Shown here: positions 17,363-26,448 of the stretch, one piece after another | Numbering within the stretch: position 1 is the first letter of the stretch | How the letters are laid out: each line of letters opens with the position of its first letter | From: an uncultured bacterium | GTDB taxonomy: Bacteria; Atribacterota; Atribacteria; Atribacterales; Caldatribacteriaceae | Length of the DNA stretch: 44,617 nt | NCBI GenBank assembly: GCA_937922705.1 | Contig: CALAIW010000004.1 | Location: 1 to 44,617 of the forward strand | Direction of reading: 5' to 3' | The notes under the pieces: model-generated | Told to the model about the DNA's origin: nothing | The model's input: the letters and a program-made list of their open reading frames with translations, nothing else | The model's database searches: none | Made by a program: the position numbers and the translations under genes

Positions 17363-18906
17363 GGTACGCTAAGGTCTCGTCTAAAGTCCAGAGGGTCGAA
17401 GGATGCCTTTTCGTCAAAGAGGCTCTCTGCCCGACGAGGTTTATCAAAACCAAGGAAATTCACCGCTACAAAGAAACTCTCCTCGGGCTCAAGGAATGAC
17501 ACTTCCACATTGATGCAATCCTCAATGTTTTTACGCAGGAAGTACCGTTGTTCTGTAAAAGATTTCTCACTCCATGAGTACACTCCCTCAACGCCAAAAG
17601 AGAAATCCTCGTTTCCCAGGCCAATTCCCACTGTCCAATCTCGAAAGTCTTGCACCTTAAGGTCGTACCGCCCACGAAGGTGGAGGAAACTTGCCTCTTC
17701 CTTACCCCAGAGGAATTCAAAGGAAAGGAGGGATTCCGGTTGAGGGTCACAGAAGAAGGGTGAGGAATCGCCTTCGACAAAGCGCCAGGAAAGACGCGTC
17801 CAAAAGCTCGGAGAGAGGTCTTTTTCCCAGAACGCCTCGATTCCTATGCGGTTAAAGTACTCTCCTTCGAAGAAGGTCATCCATCCGAAGGCTTTCACCT
17901 CAAAGTTTTCCTTTGCAAAGGAGAGTAGAAGGCGAGCATCGTAGCGTAGGCCAGAGAGTTCTTCCGTAACGAAGTATCCGTAGCTGAGTTGTCCAGAGAG
18001 TTCGGTGTTTTCTGTAAGGTGCTCGGTGAAAGAGGCAACAAGCTGGGGAGAGCGGGAAAGCATGTGGGAGTCAATCCGTTCGTTGTGGATGGAGAGAAAG
18101 AGGAGAGAGATTGTGTCGCTTCGGAGCTTTGCTGCCACACCGAAAGCGTCATCCCCTGAAAAACGCGTATCCCAAAAAATTTGTCCCTTGAAATTTGTGC
18201 TTTCAAAGACAAAGTCAGTTTTCAGTTCCTGGCCTTTTTGTGTTGTCAGGATGTAGCGAGCAAGGAAAAGGGTATCTGGCGTCAGTGCATACTCATAACG
18301 AAAACCTGTGTACCACCCCGTTTGGCGGGAGAAGCCCAAAGCGGGCAGGAGATTTCCGCCACCTTGTCCAAGGGTTCTTGTGTACCAGGGGATTTCGAGG
18401 ACCTTCCAGTCTCGAACATATAAAGCGAGTCCTTCGATGACCACCTTTCCCTCGGGGAGGACAGTAATCTCTTTTGCCCGAAGGCTTACCAGGGGAGGGT
18501 CTTTGCGACATCCAGTACAGAGGATATCGTTGCCTTTCCAGGTCCCCTGGAGGTACGAAAGGCGTCTTCCCCGAAAGAGGAGTTCTCCTCTTCCTCGAAG
18601 AACGTAGGAAAGTTTTGCCCTTTCCATCCATCCTTCGAGGCGCGTGAAGGAGAAGTACAGAGCTTCTCCCTCAATCTTTGCTTCCCCAAAGGAGGCAGAA
18701 AAAGAAGTATCCACAAAGACCTCAGAGGTCAGAATGGAGAAGCGCAAATGCTCCGTGGTGAGGGTAAAATCCTGCCACCTGACCTCAACTTTCCCCGAGG
18801 CCTCGACAACCTCTTGGGTTGCATCGTAAAGGAGCGTTTCTGCCCGAATGCGTACACCCTCAGAGGCAAAGGCAGAAGCGCTAAAAATGAGAACAAGAAA
18901 AACTAT
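17359..18906 (-). CDS. lptD: LptD/OstA-like outer-membrane assembly protein with a non-canonical (AUA) start
   Basis: Outer-membrane barrel protein of the LPS-transport type, about 515 residues, shorter than proteobacterial LptD (about 780). The mature N-terminus has the OstA/LptA fold pattern RAETLLYDATQEVVEASGKV and later LPEGKVVIEGLALYVRDWKV, LEIPWYTRTLGQ; the rest alternates as in a beta-barrel. The signal peptide core VFLVLIFSASAFA is encoded upstream of the first TTG at 18747, but that open stretch has no ATG, GTG or TTG back to its stop codon. The best start is ATA at 18906-18904, sharing bases with the upstream TAG (ATAG). One extra G in GGGG at 18907-18910 would give MRRGGIVFLVLIFSASAFA, but it would abolish the upstream stop. 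Confidence 0.78.
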   Translation of the reverse strand: MVFLVLIFSASAFASEGVRIRAETLLYDATQEVVEASGKVEVRWQDFTLTTEHLRFSILTSEVFVDTSFSASFGEAKIEGEALYFSFTRLEGWMERAKLSYVLRGRGELLFRGRRLSYLQGTWKGNDILCTGCRKDPPLVSLRAKEITVLPEGKVVIEGLALYVRDWKVLEIPWYTRTLGQGGGNLLPALGFSRQTGWYTGFRYEYALTPDTLFLARYILTTQKGQELKTDFVFESTNFKGQIFWDTRFSGDDAFGVAAKLRSDTISLLFLSIHNERIDSHMLSRSPQLVASFTEHLTENTELSGQLSYGYFVTEELSGLRYDARLLLSFAKENFEVKAFGWMTFFEGEYFNRIGIEAFWEKDLSPSFWTRLSWRFVEGDSSPFFCDPQPESLLSFEFLWGKEEASFLHLRGRYDLKVQDFRDWTVGIGLGNEDFSFGVEGVYSWSEKSFTEQRYFLRKNIEDCINVEVSFLEPEESFFVAVNFLGFDKPRRAESLFDEKASFDPLDFRRDLSVP

Positions 18907-19682
18907 TCCCCACGCCGCATGCCTTTGAGTTCTTCGAGACGCTCCCTGACCCTCCTTTCCTCGTCTTCAAGGCGCTTCATGCTCTCCTCAAGTTGCTTCT
19001 TCCGGTACTCTATGTCCTTGAGGCGTTCTTCAAGGCGAAGAATTTCTTCTTCAAGGACCGGCTTCCATTCAGGTCGGGAGAAATCAGGAGGTATGTAAGG
19101 GTCGTCAAAACGGAGCTCAACTTCGTAGGAAATCAGGGATGCCTCAGGGGAAAGCTGGGTGAGGTGGAGGATGATGTAACGAGTTTCTGGAGTAATGAAG
19201 GGGTTACCGTCTTTATCGAAGCGAGGGAAGTAGATTTTCCCAGTGAATTCCCGGAGAATCTTTTCTTCAAAGCCCTTATCGTAATCGGCGGGAAAAATTT
19301 TTTGCCCTTTATCGTCAACGAGGTAGGTGTTTTTGGCAAATCGCAAAGGATACAGAGGGGCGCCTTTAAGCCTTTTTAAGGTCACCTCAAAAACGAGGTA
19401 TCGGTTGAGGCGTTCTCGCTGGATGAAATCCCGATGGTATGCTCGTTCCTCCTCTGCGGAAAGGAGGTTTTCTTTTCCGTACTTTGCCACCCAGGCCTGG
19501 GTCACCTCTTCATTCCAAAAAAGAGCTGAAACACTGAAACTGTCCCGGACGGTCACTGAGCGGGTCCATCGAGCTACCGTATCTTTGTAGATTTTCTCGT
19601 AATCTTTGGTTTCAGCCCAGAGAATCGAGAATCCGAAAAGAATGCAGAGCGCTATGATTCCAAAAACAGCAATTCGTCTCAC
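18903..19682 (-). CDS. Exported protein with C-terminal coiled coil, unknown function
   Basis: 259 residues, family not recognised. The start is GTG at 19682, eight bases after AAAGGAG; an earlier in-frame start at 19703 lies ahead of that site. Signal peptide: RR then a hydrophobic core to about residue 23 with likely cleavage after LWA. The middle (about 40-200) is a mixed alpha/beta domain with no motif I know. Residues about 205-255 form a highly charged coiled coil (LEEEILRLEERLKDIEYRKK and RLEDEERRVRERLEEL). It is periplasmic or envelope-associated by inference. The stop interlocks with the LptD-like gene, which suggests co-translation and a shared envelope task. Confidence 0.75.
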   Translation of the reverse strand: MRRIAVFGIIALCILFGFSILWAETKDYEKIYKDTVARWTRSVTVRDSFSVSALFWNEEVTQAWVAKYGKENLLSAEEERAYHRDFIQRERLNRYLVFEVTLKRLKGAPLYPLRFAKNTYLVDDKGQKIFPADYDKGFEEKILREFTGKIYFPRFDKDGNPFITPETRYIILHLTQLSPEASLISYEVELRFDDPYIPPDFSRPEWKPVLEEEILRLEERLKDIEYRKKQLEESMKRLEDEERRVRERLEELKGMRRGE

Positions 19683-19696
19683 AGTATCCACTCCTT

Positions 19697-20797
19697 TCAC
19701 CACTCTTCAAAGGGAAGGATTTCTATTTCCACCTGAGGGGTTTCCCAGGGAGCAACTTCCTTTTCAGGCTGTGGTGTCTCTTCGATAGGAGTTTCTTCCC
19801 AAGCTTCTCCTTCTTCAGGAGTAGCGCCCTCGAAAGGAATCTCTGTGGTTTCCTCTTTCTTAAGAATGCCCTCAAGCCCTTCAAGGGGACCAGCTACTTC
19901 TCTGTCCTCGGCAACCTCAAGGTAAAATTCTTTTCCTTTCTCCACTTTTGCCGGCTCGCCCTGAACAAAAACTCCTGCTACTGCCCCCACCGGACCAAAG
20001 ATGGCAAGTCCTGCAATACTTGCACCCACCGCATATGCCAGGGCTTTGTTCTCCTGGATTGCCCGCTCACCCATAGTGAGAGGGATAAAAGTTCCATCGA
20101 CTGCCTCCACCTTACCAAAGTCAATCTCAATGCGCCCTGGTCGTCCAAAGGCTCCTCGCCTCCGGATTTTGGTGATTCTTCCTTCCCCTCGAGCATTTTT
20201 CGCAATGACCAGTACCCCTTCTATGCGCACATCCTCAAGAACAATGTAGGGAACTGGATCGCCTTCGTCGCTCTTTTCTGAGTTGAGGTCAGTCTCAAGG
20301 GCCACCTTGACGAGGGTCCCCTTGGGGACAAGGACGGTGAAACTCGAAGCTTGTCTTGGGTCGACACACGTCCGATAGAGCCGGTCAACCCGCACGCCAA
20401 TGGGATCATTGCTTACCACACCAAAGATCAAGCGTTCCAACTCCTCAAGTTCTGCAAGGAGGATACCACTTTTGGGGGGTTCGGATCGCAGTGTGAGACG
20501 AATAGCCCGCATTTTAAAGGCAAGCGATGGTTCGTCCTTTGTTCCATCGAGGATAAACGTCTTGAGTTTTGCCACTCGTTCCATCAAGGTTCCAGAAAGG
20601 GTATCTCCTACAAGGTCTCGCTCAATTTTTTCTACCCGGGCAAGGACGCTCCCACTTTGGGGGGTCCCATAGAGCACCTTTTCCATTTCCTCAACGTCCC
20701 GAACAATCGGTGAGACCACTTTTCCTTCCTGTGCCTGTGCTCCCAGAGTCCACAGGATGAACCCAAAAAGAACCATCAGGGTTATGAGTCTCCGCAT
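19697..20797 (-). CDS. Exported repeat protein with acidic tail, unknown function
   Basis: About 366 residues, unrecognised. Signal peptide to about residue 22 (GAQA-QEG). Residues about 34-145 hold roughly five tandem 21-residue units of pattern hydrophobic-E-x-hydrophobic-E-x2-L-x-G-x4-G-x-L-x2-R, for example VEEMEKVLYGTPQSGSVLAR and VEKIERDLVGDTLSGTLMER. A beta domain follows (LVPKGTLVKVALETDL, then RGAFGRPGRIEIDFGKVEAV and DGTFIPL), then a glycine-rich hydrophobic segment near 250-275, then a Glu/Pro-rich tail. The ATG at 20797 overlaps the TGA of the GGDEF gene (TGATG); GTG at 20800 is an equally spaced alternative from AAGGAG. Confidence 0.72.
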   Translation of the reverse strand: MRRLITLMVLFGFILWTLGAQAQEGKVVSPIVRDVEEMEKVLYGTPQSGSVLARVEKIERDLVGDTLSGTLMERVAKLKTFILDGTKDEPSLAFKMRAIRLTLRSEPPKSGILLAELEELERLIFGVVSNDPIGVRVDRLYRTCVDPRQASSFTVLVPKGTLVKVALETDLNSEKSDEGDPVPYIVLEDVRIEGVLVIAKNARGEGRITKIRRRGAFGRPGRIEIDFGKVEAVDGTFIPLTMGERAIQENKALAYAVGASIAGLAIFGPVGAVAGVFVQGEPAKVEKGKEFYLEVAEDREVAGPLEGLEGILKKEETTEIPFEGATPEEGEAWEETPIEETPQPEKEVAPWETPQVEIEILPFEEW

Positions 20798-24905: not shown

Positions 24906-24933
24906 ATTATACCGTAGAACCGAGAAAAGACAA
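24906..24933 (-). promoter_or_regulatory. Promoter of the COG3580-to-K+-channel operon
   Basis: Minus-strand -35 TTGTCT (24928-24933), 16-base spacer, -10 TATAAT (24906-24911), about 27 bases before the COG3580 start. It lies over the end of the M20 gene, so this operon can also receive read-through from upstream. Confidence 0.65.
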
Positions 24934-25956
24934 AAAGATTTCCCGAAGTCGTTCGAGTTCGGCAAGACTCACACACTCCCGTTCGGAGTGGGCAAGGGCA
25001 AGGTCTCCTGCTCCGAAAACCACGCTTGGCACACCCCGCATGACGAGGTAGGTTGCATCTGTCCAAGAGGGCATTCCCGCATAGATTGCCTTTTTCCCCT
25101 CAACGCGTTCAATGGCTCTTGCAAGGCCTTTGACCACTGGACTTTCCCAGGGAATAGAAAACGCTGGGTTGGTGTCAAGAAAGACTACTCGCACTGGGTA
25201 CTCCCGCTCAAGAGCGAGAACCCTTTCTTTCACCTCTTCTACTCCGTGAGGTGGAGGAAAAGGAAGGGCGCATTCAAGCAAACAACGTTCGGGAATAACG
25301 TAACTCGATTCGCCTCCTTCAATCTTCCCAAGCATGAGCCGAAGCGGTGGAGAAAAAAGGGGATGAGGAGCAAAAGTAGCGACAATTTCCTCACACTTTC
25401 GAGCGATTTCCATGGCTAAGGCAATGGCGTTTTGCGCTGCATGGGGGTATGCTCCGTGCCCACTCAAACTCTCGATTACAAAACGCACTTCCACGTCTCC
25501 TGCTAAAGCAGTACAGAGGCTAAAGCTTGTTGGTTCGAGGACAACGGCACCCTCAAAACTTCGGTGGGGTTCAAAGTGCCAGGAGCCTGCACCAGTTGTT
25601 TCCTCTTCTGAGAAGAACACAAGTTCTACTGGACTTGTTGTCCGCTGCACCGCATCAAGAAGGGCGGCAATCTGTCCCCGCGTGTCGAGGACTCCGGCAC
25701 CGAAAATGAAACCGTCTCGCGTTGAAAAACTCGGTTGCCTTCCTGCGTAGTGAACGTCCACATGGGTGGCAAGGAGAAAGGGAGACGACCCTCTCCGGGC
25801 ATAGAGGTTCCACTTTCCCGGATCGTATTCCTGCCAGTGGATATCCTCAAATCCGCAGTCTTCGAGGAAACTGGCAATCCATTGGAGCACCGGGAGTTCC
25901 TCACCGCTTGCTCCCCGAAGACGAAGGAGTTTCTCGAGAATCTCGAGGAGATACAG
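24907..25956 (-). CDS. M20-family metallopeptidase/deacylase with a CTG start
   Basis: Zinc-dependent exopeptidase or deacylase (ArgE/DapE/carboxypeptidase relatives). Metal-site motifs: ATHVDVHYAGR (His, Asp), GAGVLDTRGQIAALL (Asp), SEEETTGAGS (Glu-Glu) and a late His in AHSERECV; dimerisation domain with SLSGHGAYPHAAQNAI. The N-terminal helix LLEILEKLLRLRGASGEELP is encoded upstream of the first GTG (25890). The only sensible start there is CTG at 25956, nine bases after a perfect AAGGAGGTGA (25963-25972); an in-frame TGA sits within that site. Length then is 349 residues, normal for the family. It overlaps the GNAT gene by 56 bases. Confidence 0.85.
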   Translation of the reverse strand: MYLLEILEKLLRLRGASGEELPVLQWIASFLEDCGFEDIHWQEYDPGKWNLYARRGSSPFLLATHVDVHYAGRQPSFSTRDGFIFGAGVLDTRGQIAALLDAVQRTTSPVELVFFSEEETTGAGSWHFEPHRSFEGAVVLEPTSFSLCTALAGDVEVRFVIESLSGHGAYPHAAQNAIALAMEIARKCEEIVATFAPHPLFSPPLRLMLGKIEGGESSYVIPERCLLECALPFPPPHGVEEVKERVLALEREYPVRVVFLDTNPAFSIPWESPVVKGLARAIERVEGKKAIYAGMPSWTDATYLVMRGVPSVVFGAGDLALAHSERECVSLAELERLREIFLSFLGSTV

Positions 25957-26434
25957 GAGTGCTCACCTCCTTAATCATGCGAACCCACTTTCCATATTGG
26001 CTAGCTTTCTGAAAGCCCCGCCGGAGGTAAAAGGCAATGGCATGCTCGTTTTTCTCTCCTACCCAGAGACCAATTTTTGTTCGTCCAGCCTTTTCAAGGT
26101 AGGCAAGCGCATGATTAAAGAGAGTGCTACCGATGCCTTTACCTTGAAAGTCAGGGTCCACCACGAATTCGTGGACTTCCCCAAACAGCTCTCTACCCTC
26201 CCACCACTGGGCATGAACCCCGATGAATCCAGCGATTCTCTCTCCTAAGAAGGCAACAAAGAATCCCTTTGGGTCTCCCCGAAAGAGCCATCGAATGTAT
26301 CCCTCGATACGCTGGGGGAGGTGGTACCCATACTCGGGGAGGTGGGCATACGCCCGCTCGTAGAGGCGCACAAGGTCCGGCATGAAACGATGGAGTTCTT
26401 CTTCGGTGAGGTTTGTGATGCGAAGATCAGACAT
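25901..26434 (-). CDS. GNAT-family N-acetyltransferase
   Basis: Acetyl-CoA-dependent acetyltransferase, 177 residues. The start at 26434 has GGAG six bases upstream. GNAT motif A is EFVVDPDFQGKGIGSTLFNHA (Q/R-x2-G-x-G/A as QGKGIG, around residues 88-108); motif B contains NEHAIAFYLRRGF. The acceptor is unknown; it may be a peptide or amino acid, given the M20 deacylase next to it. The last 19 or so residues (after WVRMIKE) are encoded in the overlap with the M20 gene and look like low-complexity overprinted sequence rather than domain. Confidence 0.88.
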   Translation of the reverse strand: MSDLRITNLTEEELHRFMPDLVRLYERAYAHLPEYGYHLPQRIEGYIRWLFRGDPKGFFVAFLGERIAGFIGVHAQWWEGRELFGEVHEFVVDPDFQGKGIGSTLFNHALAYLEKAGRTKIGLWVGEKNEHAIAFYLRRGFQKASQYGKWVRMIKEVSTPVSPRDSRETPSSSGSKR

Positions 26435-26448
26435 AACCATCTCCACGC

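Follow-up and report, generated by a model that had tools for sequence, protein, structure and literature searches.

A probable CTG start codon for an M20-family gene of Caldatribacterium, in an order with further near-cognate start codons

Introduction

Where does translation of an M20-type deacylase/peptidase gene begin when its first in-frame ATG, GTG or TTG lies 22 codons inside a conserved N-terminus? The question is raised by a gene on the minus strand of contig CALAIW010000004.1, within the window, i.e. the whole 44,617-nt stretch of DNA that was analysed. A sequence-only reading of the window had proposed that the gene starts at a CTG behind a Shine-Dalgarno (SD) sequence, and had suggested that near-cognate starts may be used more than usual in this organism. 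Here we weigh both proposals by comparison with related genomes. The features concerned are as follows.

24907..25956, minus strand: M20-type deacylase/peptidase coding sequence read from the putative CTG start, 349 aa plus stop, assigned by its Pfam domains
25954..25956, minus strand: probable CTG start codon; the orthologue column holds CTG in 6, ATG in 3 and TTG in 1 (n = 10)
25963..25972, minus strand: Shine-Dalgarno sequence AAGGAGGTGA, with 9 nt from GGAGG to the CTG and an in-frame TGA at 25965-25963
25888..25890, minus strand: GTG, the first in-frame ATG/GTG/TTG and the start chosen by the ORF finder; GTC in genomes G001 and G002
25901..26446, minus strand: upstream GNAT acetyltransferase ORF, whose 3' end overlaps the M20 start; stop TGA 25903-25901

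Results

Layout of the M20 start region

The M20 frame is closed at its upstream end by the TGA lying within AAGGAGGTGA, exactly where the sequence-only reading had placed it, and continues GCA CTC CTG TAT CTC CTC GAG ATT, the CTG (25956-25954) being one base off ATG. AAGGAGGTGA is unique in the window (both strands searched). The predicted protein has 327 aa when read from the GTG (ORF 24907..25890) versus 349 aa from the CTG. No ATG, GTG or TTG lies between the frame opening and the CTG in the window's own genome (G000) or in three of the four other Caldatribacterium genomes compared (G001, G003 and G004); in the fourth, G002, a GTG stands two codons upstream of the CTG, 3 nt from GGAGG. The placement of the TGA within the SD is not general, since in G002 the frame is bounded upstream by a TAA, five codons ahead of the CTG.

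The start column in orthologues

The search covered 61 genomes, of which 48 gave some M20 match and ten held a close orthologue (E < 1e-100), among them G000 and the four other members of the genus, G001-G004. The start column is gap-free in all ten, with a conserved ATT or ATC exactly five codons downstream. The column holds CTG in the five Caldatribacterium genomes and in G006, ATG in G005, G014 and G016 (the last two orthologues being nearly identical), and TTG in G012; variation of this kind, between ATG, TTG and CTG, is expected of a start codon. The sequence AAGGAGGTG is kept in all five genus genomes. The conserved N-terminal helix that had been recognised ahead of the first GTG is borne out by the ten orthologues, none of which lacks it.

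Some orthologues have further canonical codons close by. In G006 the open frame has two GTG codons, 11 and 14 codons upstream of the CTG and preceding the SD; six codons downstream of the CTG it has a TTG, with GGAG 5 nt before the TTG. G005 has an extra GTG one codon and an ATG two codons upstream of the start column, and G014 and G016 have an extra TTG two codons upstream. A leucine codon that is fixed within the genus is weak evidence, as 7 of the 19 all-Leu M20 columns also use a single codon; CTG makes up 7.6% of Leu codons (predicted genes, 419-kb sample).

Read from the CTG, the protein scores 69.4 bits against PF01546 (cut-off 24.6) and 42.9 bits against PF07687 (cut-off 21), placing both the catalytic and the dimerisation domain of Peptidase family M20 (ArgE/DapE-like) above the Pfam cut-offs. 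Among NCBIfam models, those of ArgE/DapE-type deacylases rank highest, the best 25 of 32 all scoring below their own cut-offs. With NF006404, at a score below the model's cut-off, protein residues 3-342 align to profile positions 3-322; because this alignment begins at residue 3, the CTG start fits the N-terminus of the NF006404 family. ArgE/DapE-type profiles and solved structures likewise align from about residue 3-8 onward.

Given the variation of the column between genera, the rarity of CTG among Leu codons and the family N-terminus, the M20 gene very probably starts at CTG in Caldatribacterium, and the proposal of a CTG start behind an SD is well supported by the orthologue comparison. 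Counting against it, poor initiation at CUG by E. coli ribosomes in vitro is described in the available part of one report (PMC11497404).

Alternative readings of the M20 start

A start at a downstream canonical codon, here GTG 25890, would yield a protein without the first helix. This GTG is the first in-frame ATG/GTG/TTG, and starting there would remove 22 residues that are conserved among the orthologues. Its column is GTC in two of the five genus members (see above), and the first downstream canonical codon itself varies within the genus, G001, G003 and G004 having a TTG about 12 codons in. By eye, no SD-like run is found at a matching distance from a downstream start. We regard this reading as very unlikely.

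Another non-canonical start, at CTC 25959 or ATT 25941, seems scarcely likely either. The claim that the CTG is the sole codon at correct spacing does not stand, for CTC 25959, only 6 nt behind GGAGG, is also workable: the distance from SD 6-mers to a canonical codon, taken over 309 predicted genes of the 419-kb sample, is most often 7 or 8 nt (34 and 35 cases), while distances of 6 and 9 nt occur 12 and 13 times. The CTG is preferred because it is constant in the genus while the codon preceding it is CTC, TTC or TCT; CTC is moreover two bases off ATG. The column of ATT 25941 shows eight ATT and two ATC among the ten orthologues; however, it lies 24 nt from the SD and encodes an isoleucine of the helix, and the orthologues with ATG or TTG start five codons earlier.

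A +1 ribosomal frameshift from the GNAT frame, producing a GNAT-M20 fusion, is suggested by the overlap of the two genes, in which GNAT runs on 53 nt past the CTG in all five genus genomes. Against it, the M20 start column in orthologues of other genera is occupied by ATG or TTG, their GNAT genes end elsewhere, and no slippery site is apparent by eye. A programmed frameshift would also predict relatives lacking a separate start for the second frame, whereas those of other genera have ATG or TTG. We judge a frameshift highly improbable.

Least credible of all is a sequencing or assembly error (the true codon being ATG, GTG or TTG) or gene decay: a single base does decide the start codon, yet the CTG recurs in five genus genomes and G006, and G001, G002 and G004 have an uninterrupted M20 frame of 86-88% identity (in G004 to the contig end), the G003 copy appearing as two overlapping matches of 72% and 80%.

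The GNAT overlap and a proposed explanation of the CTG start

In each of the five genus genomes the first base of the CTG precedes the GNAT stop by 53 nt, a layout in which stop-start coupling is unavailable. In the other genera the GNAT end stands, relative to the M20 start codon, at 11 nt in G005, 1 nt in G006, -4 nt in G012 and 20 nt in G014 and G016. A stop-start overlap of the termination-reinitiation type is thus absent from the genus M20 genes and found in G006, where the GNAT stop and the M20 CTG overlap as CTGA.

Returning to the CTG start, we consider it highly likely, judging from the sequence comparison, that M20 is translated from CUG by the ordinary fMet-initiator tRNA, with the near-perfect SD inside the end of GNAT positioning it. 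Strong SD pairing would compensate for the first base of the codon being mismatched, and translation of GNAT, by opening the mRNA and delivering ribosomes, would help to do so. The first residue of M20 would be fMet. By analogy with published near-cognate starts, M20 output may be low and sensitive to IF3. The gene would be one of a set, since near-cognate starts are also kept in dnaB, pilQ and infC of this order.

Near-cognate starts elsewhere in the order

The survey used sampled stretches of G000 (819 kb, 44% of the genome), G005 (690 kb) and G006 (400 kb). Among the 384 G000 genes for which usable reciprocal orthologues existed, 33 rows showed conservation extending upstream of the first canonical codon, most of these rows being SD-derived or due to an overlapping frame, as judged by eye. 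Six near-cognate candidates were chosen by hand, five from this extension list (infC, dnaB, M20 and two ATA cases described below) and pilQ from a separate list. Four of them, M20, infC, dnaB and pilQ, hold up; the three outside the window are as follows.

G000 C10:100936 (L160; relatives L161-L180), minus strand: dnaB, CTG start column
G000 C9:7458 (L052:7458; L250-L266): pilQ-like gene, secretin domains
L069:1252 and 23 other loci (L056-L079): infC, ATC or ATA start column

The dnaB start is CTG in 21 of 21 loci inspected in the order, across four families, and the preceding codon varies; the other 19 all-Leu dnaB columns use 3-6 codons each. Of the 25 genomes, G001 and G016 gave no match, and the partial matches in G008 and G011 were left out. 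In family f7 the start is ATG in all nine loci inspected (dnaB was also found in f5 and f6, which were left out). The dnaB CTG overlaps the stop of the upstream ORF as CTGA in 14 of the 21 loci; from its sequence we take this ORF to encode ribosomal protein L9.

The C9:7458 gene is named pilQ here on its secretin domains. All 17 loci inspected carry ATT at the start position, at a distance of 8 nt from GGAGG, and the frame from its opening up to the ATT contains no canonical codon. Some match was found in 20 of 25 genomes; the split gene of G024 and the partial ones of G023 and G001 were left out, and for G012 the ATT was read separately, as the scripted reading took an earlier GGAGG. An Ile-column control says little, comprising a single column with 13 ATC and 4 ATT. 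For infC, which was matched in 24 genomes, the start column holds ATC in 18 and ATA in 6 of them; GGAGG (22 genomes) or GGGGG (G006 and G008) precedes it by 8 nt, and in 8 of the 24 a canonical codon lies 6-38 codons upstream in the open frame, ahead of the SD.

Two ATA candidates are weaker. The sequence-only reading had named one of them alongside the CTG:

18904..18906, minus strand: ATA, frame opening at 18966; overlaps the stop of ORF 18903..19703 as ATAG

The column is not conserved: across the genus (L190-L194) it is ATA in G000, GTG in G002 and GTA in G001, G003 and G004. It overlaps the stop of the upstream ORF (261-273 codons) in all five, as ATAG, GTGA or GTAG, and by eye no clear SD is found at that place in the five genus genomes. 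The case is ambiguous and weaker than that of the CTG; it could be stop-start reinitiation on odd codons. A miscounted G run behind this case was considered and dropped because, among the other genus members, only G002 shows a canonical start at this place, a GTG. The second, C5:34879 (L108:14879; L275-L286), was rejected as a conserved ATA, which is present in G000 only, the other 11 having ATG (9) or TTG (2).

Other scans added little. A scan with SD 6-mers for codons 5-10 nt downstream gave 10 observed CTG versus 5.3 expected and is uninformative, a canonical codon being so placed in only 108 of 309 genes. A codon-blind boundary test returned 263 boundaries from 428 orthologue pairs and was swamped by gene-internal positions; a stricter version returned 64, of which 36 were canonical in both genomes, the others being mostly codons adjoining a canonical one or gene-internal, and it put dnaB and infC one codon early.

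Two further observations were made along the way: a possible CTG start at C3:84751, and an apparent ATT start 8 nt behind GGAGG in G005 (C9:26608) and G006 (C6:2295), which belong to two sister genera, for a regulator that is presumably Rrf2-like by its sequence and has ATG in G000.

With dnaB, pilQ and infC in its favour, the suggestion that near-cognate starts are used more than usual is likely to be right for this lineage, as a hand-picked count, not as a controlled rate.

IF3 and the initiator tRNA

Features of IF3, which had been put forward for inspection, gave no support for a cause there. The IF3 gene is present and ordinary by alignment, the G000 protein aligning with solved IF3 from residue 6 to the end, and the G000 initiator tRNA keeps the three G-C pairs, GGG-CCC, in its anticodon stem. 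Both look ordinary, and an odd initiator tRNA or IF3 is unsupported as a cause. With no sign of a relaxed start check in these two, ordinary initiation on weak codons aided by a strong SD is the likelier account.

Discussion

Near-cognate starts are already known, E. coli pcnB for instance reportedly starting at AUU; what is unusual here is CTG together with conservation across an order. A close parallel to M20 is sigR of Streptomyces, described in the available part of PMC5472188. There too a conserved non-canonical start stands behind an SD, a GTC behind AGGAGGTG, and the original annotation had placed the start at a GTG close by; of 34 species, 32 have GTC and two have GTT (PMC5472188). The sigR start is, unlike that of M20, a GTC described for one gene in one genus, and it was shown by the mature N-terminus, stop-codon mutants and IF3 mutants (PMC5472188), whereas the M20 start is put forward here from sequence comparison.

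Conserved near-cognate starts with a strong extended SD, as in M20, are also described in the available text of PMC13009471: AUA in ccpN of S. aureus and B. subtilis, and AUU in cvfC1 and AUA in infC of S. aureus. These are AUA or AUU, not CUG, and were seen by Ribo-Ret and measured with reporters, reaching about 10% of AUG in poor medium and, for ccpN, up to 30% in rich medium (PMC13009471). The infC start is given as ATT for E. coli and as ATC for Streptomyces (PMC5472188); E. coli infC resembles the infC of this order (ATC or ATA) in its near-cognate start, and differs from M20 in having AUU and autoregulation through IF3. Such published cases are the model on which we would expect the output level and IF3 control of the near-cognate starts described here.

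A survey of start-codon switches in 36 genome groups, as far as its available text goes, found 2 changes to CUG and 1 to AUU among 61,358 ancestral AUG starts (PMC5622118). It documents rare CUG and AUU switches on annotated starts; here CTG stands in all 21 inspected dnaB loci. Our literature search returned no paper joining Caldatribacterium with a start codon, and among the matches listed (titles and abstract openings) nothing relevant for a CTG start with dnaB or rplI, or for Atribacterota with translation initiation.

It is tempting to suppose that the near-cognate set is kept across the order by selection, with replication, pilus and other genes co-tuned by the level of IF3. We think this unlikely on present evidence. 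If true, it would constitute a translational regulon read via start-codon quality, with CTG in dnaB and in Caldatribacterium M20, ATT in pilQ and ATC or ATA in infC, and CUG, weak on E. coli ribosomes, would be the working start of an essential gene.

For annotation, gene finders restricted to ATG, GTG and TTG would truncate the products of M20, dnaB and pilQ in this lineage. Should the dnaB CTG indeed serve as the start, a codon regarded as very weak has persisted in the replicative helicase gene throughout the divergence of the order, and the purpose of weak starts, be it low output or IF3 control, would become directly testable.
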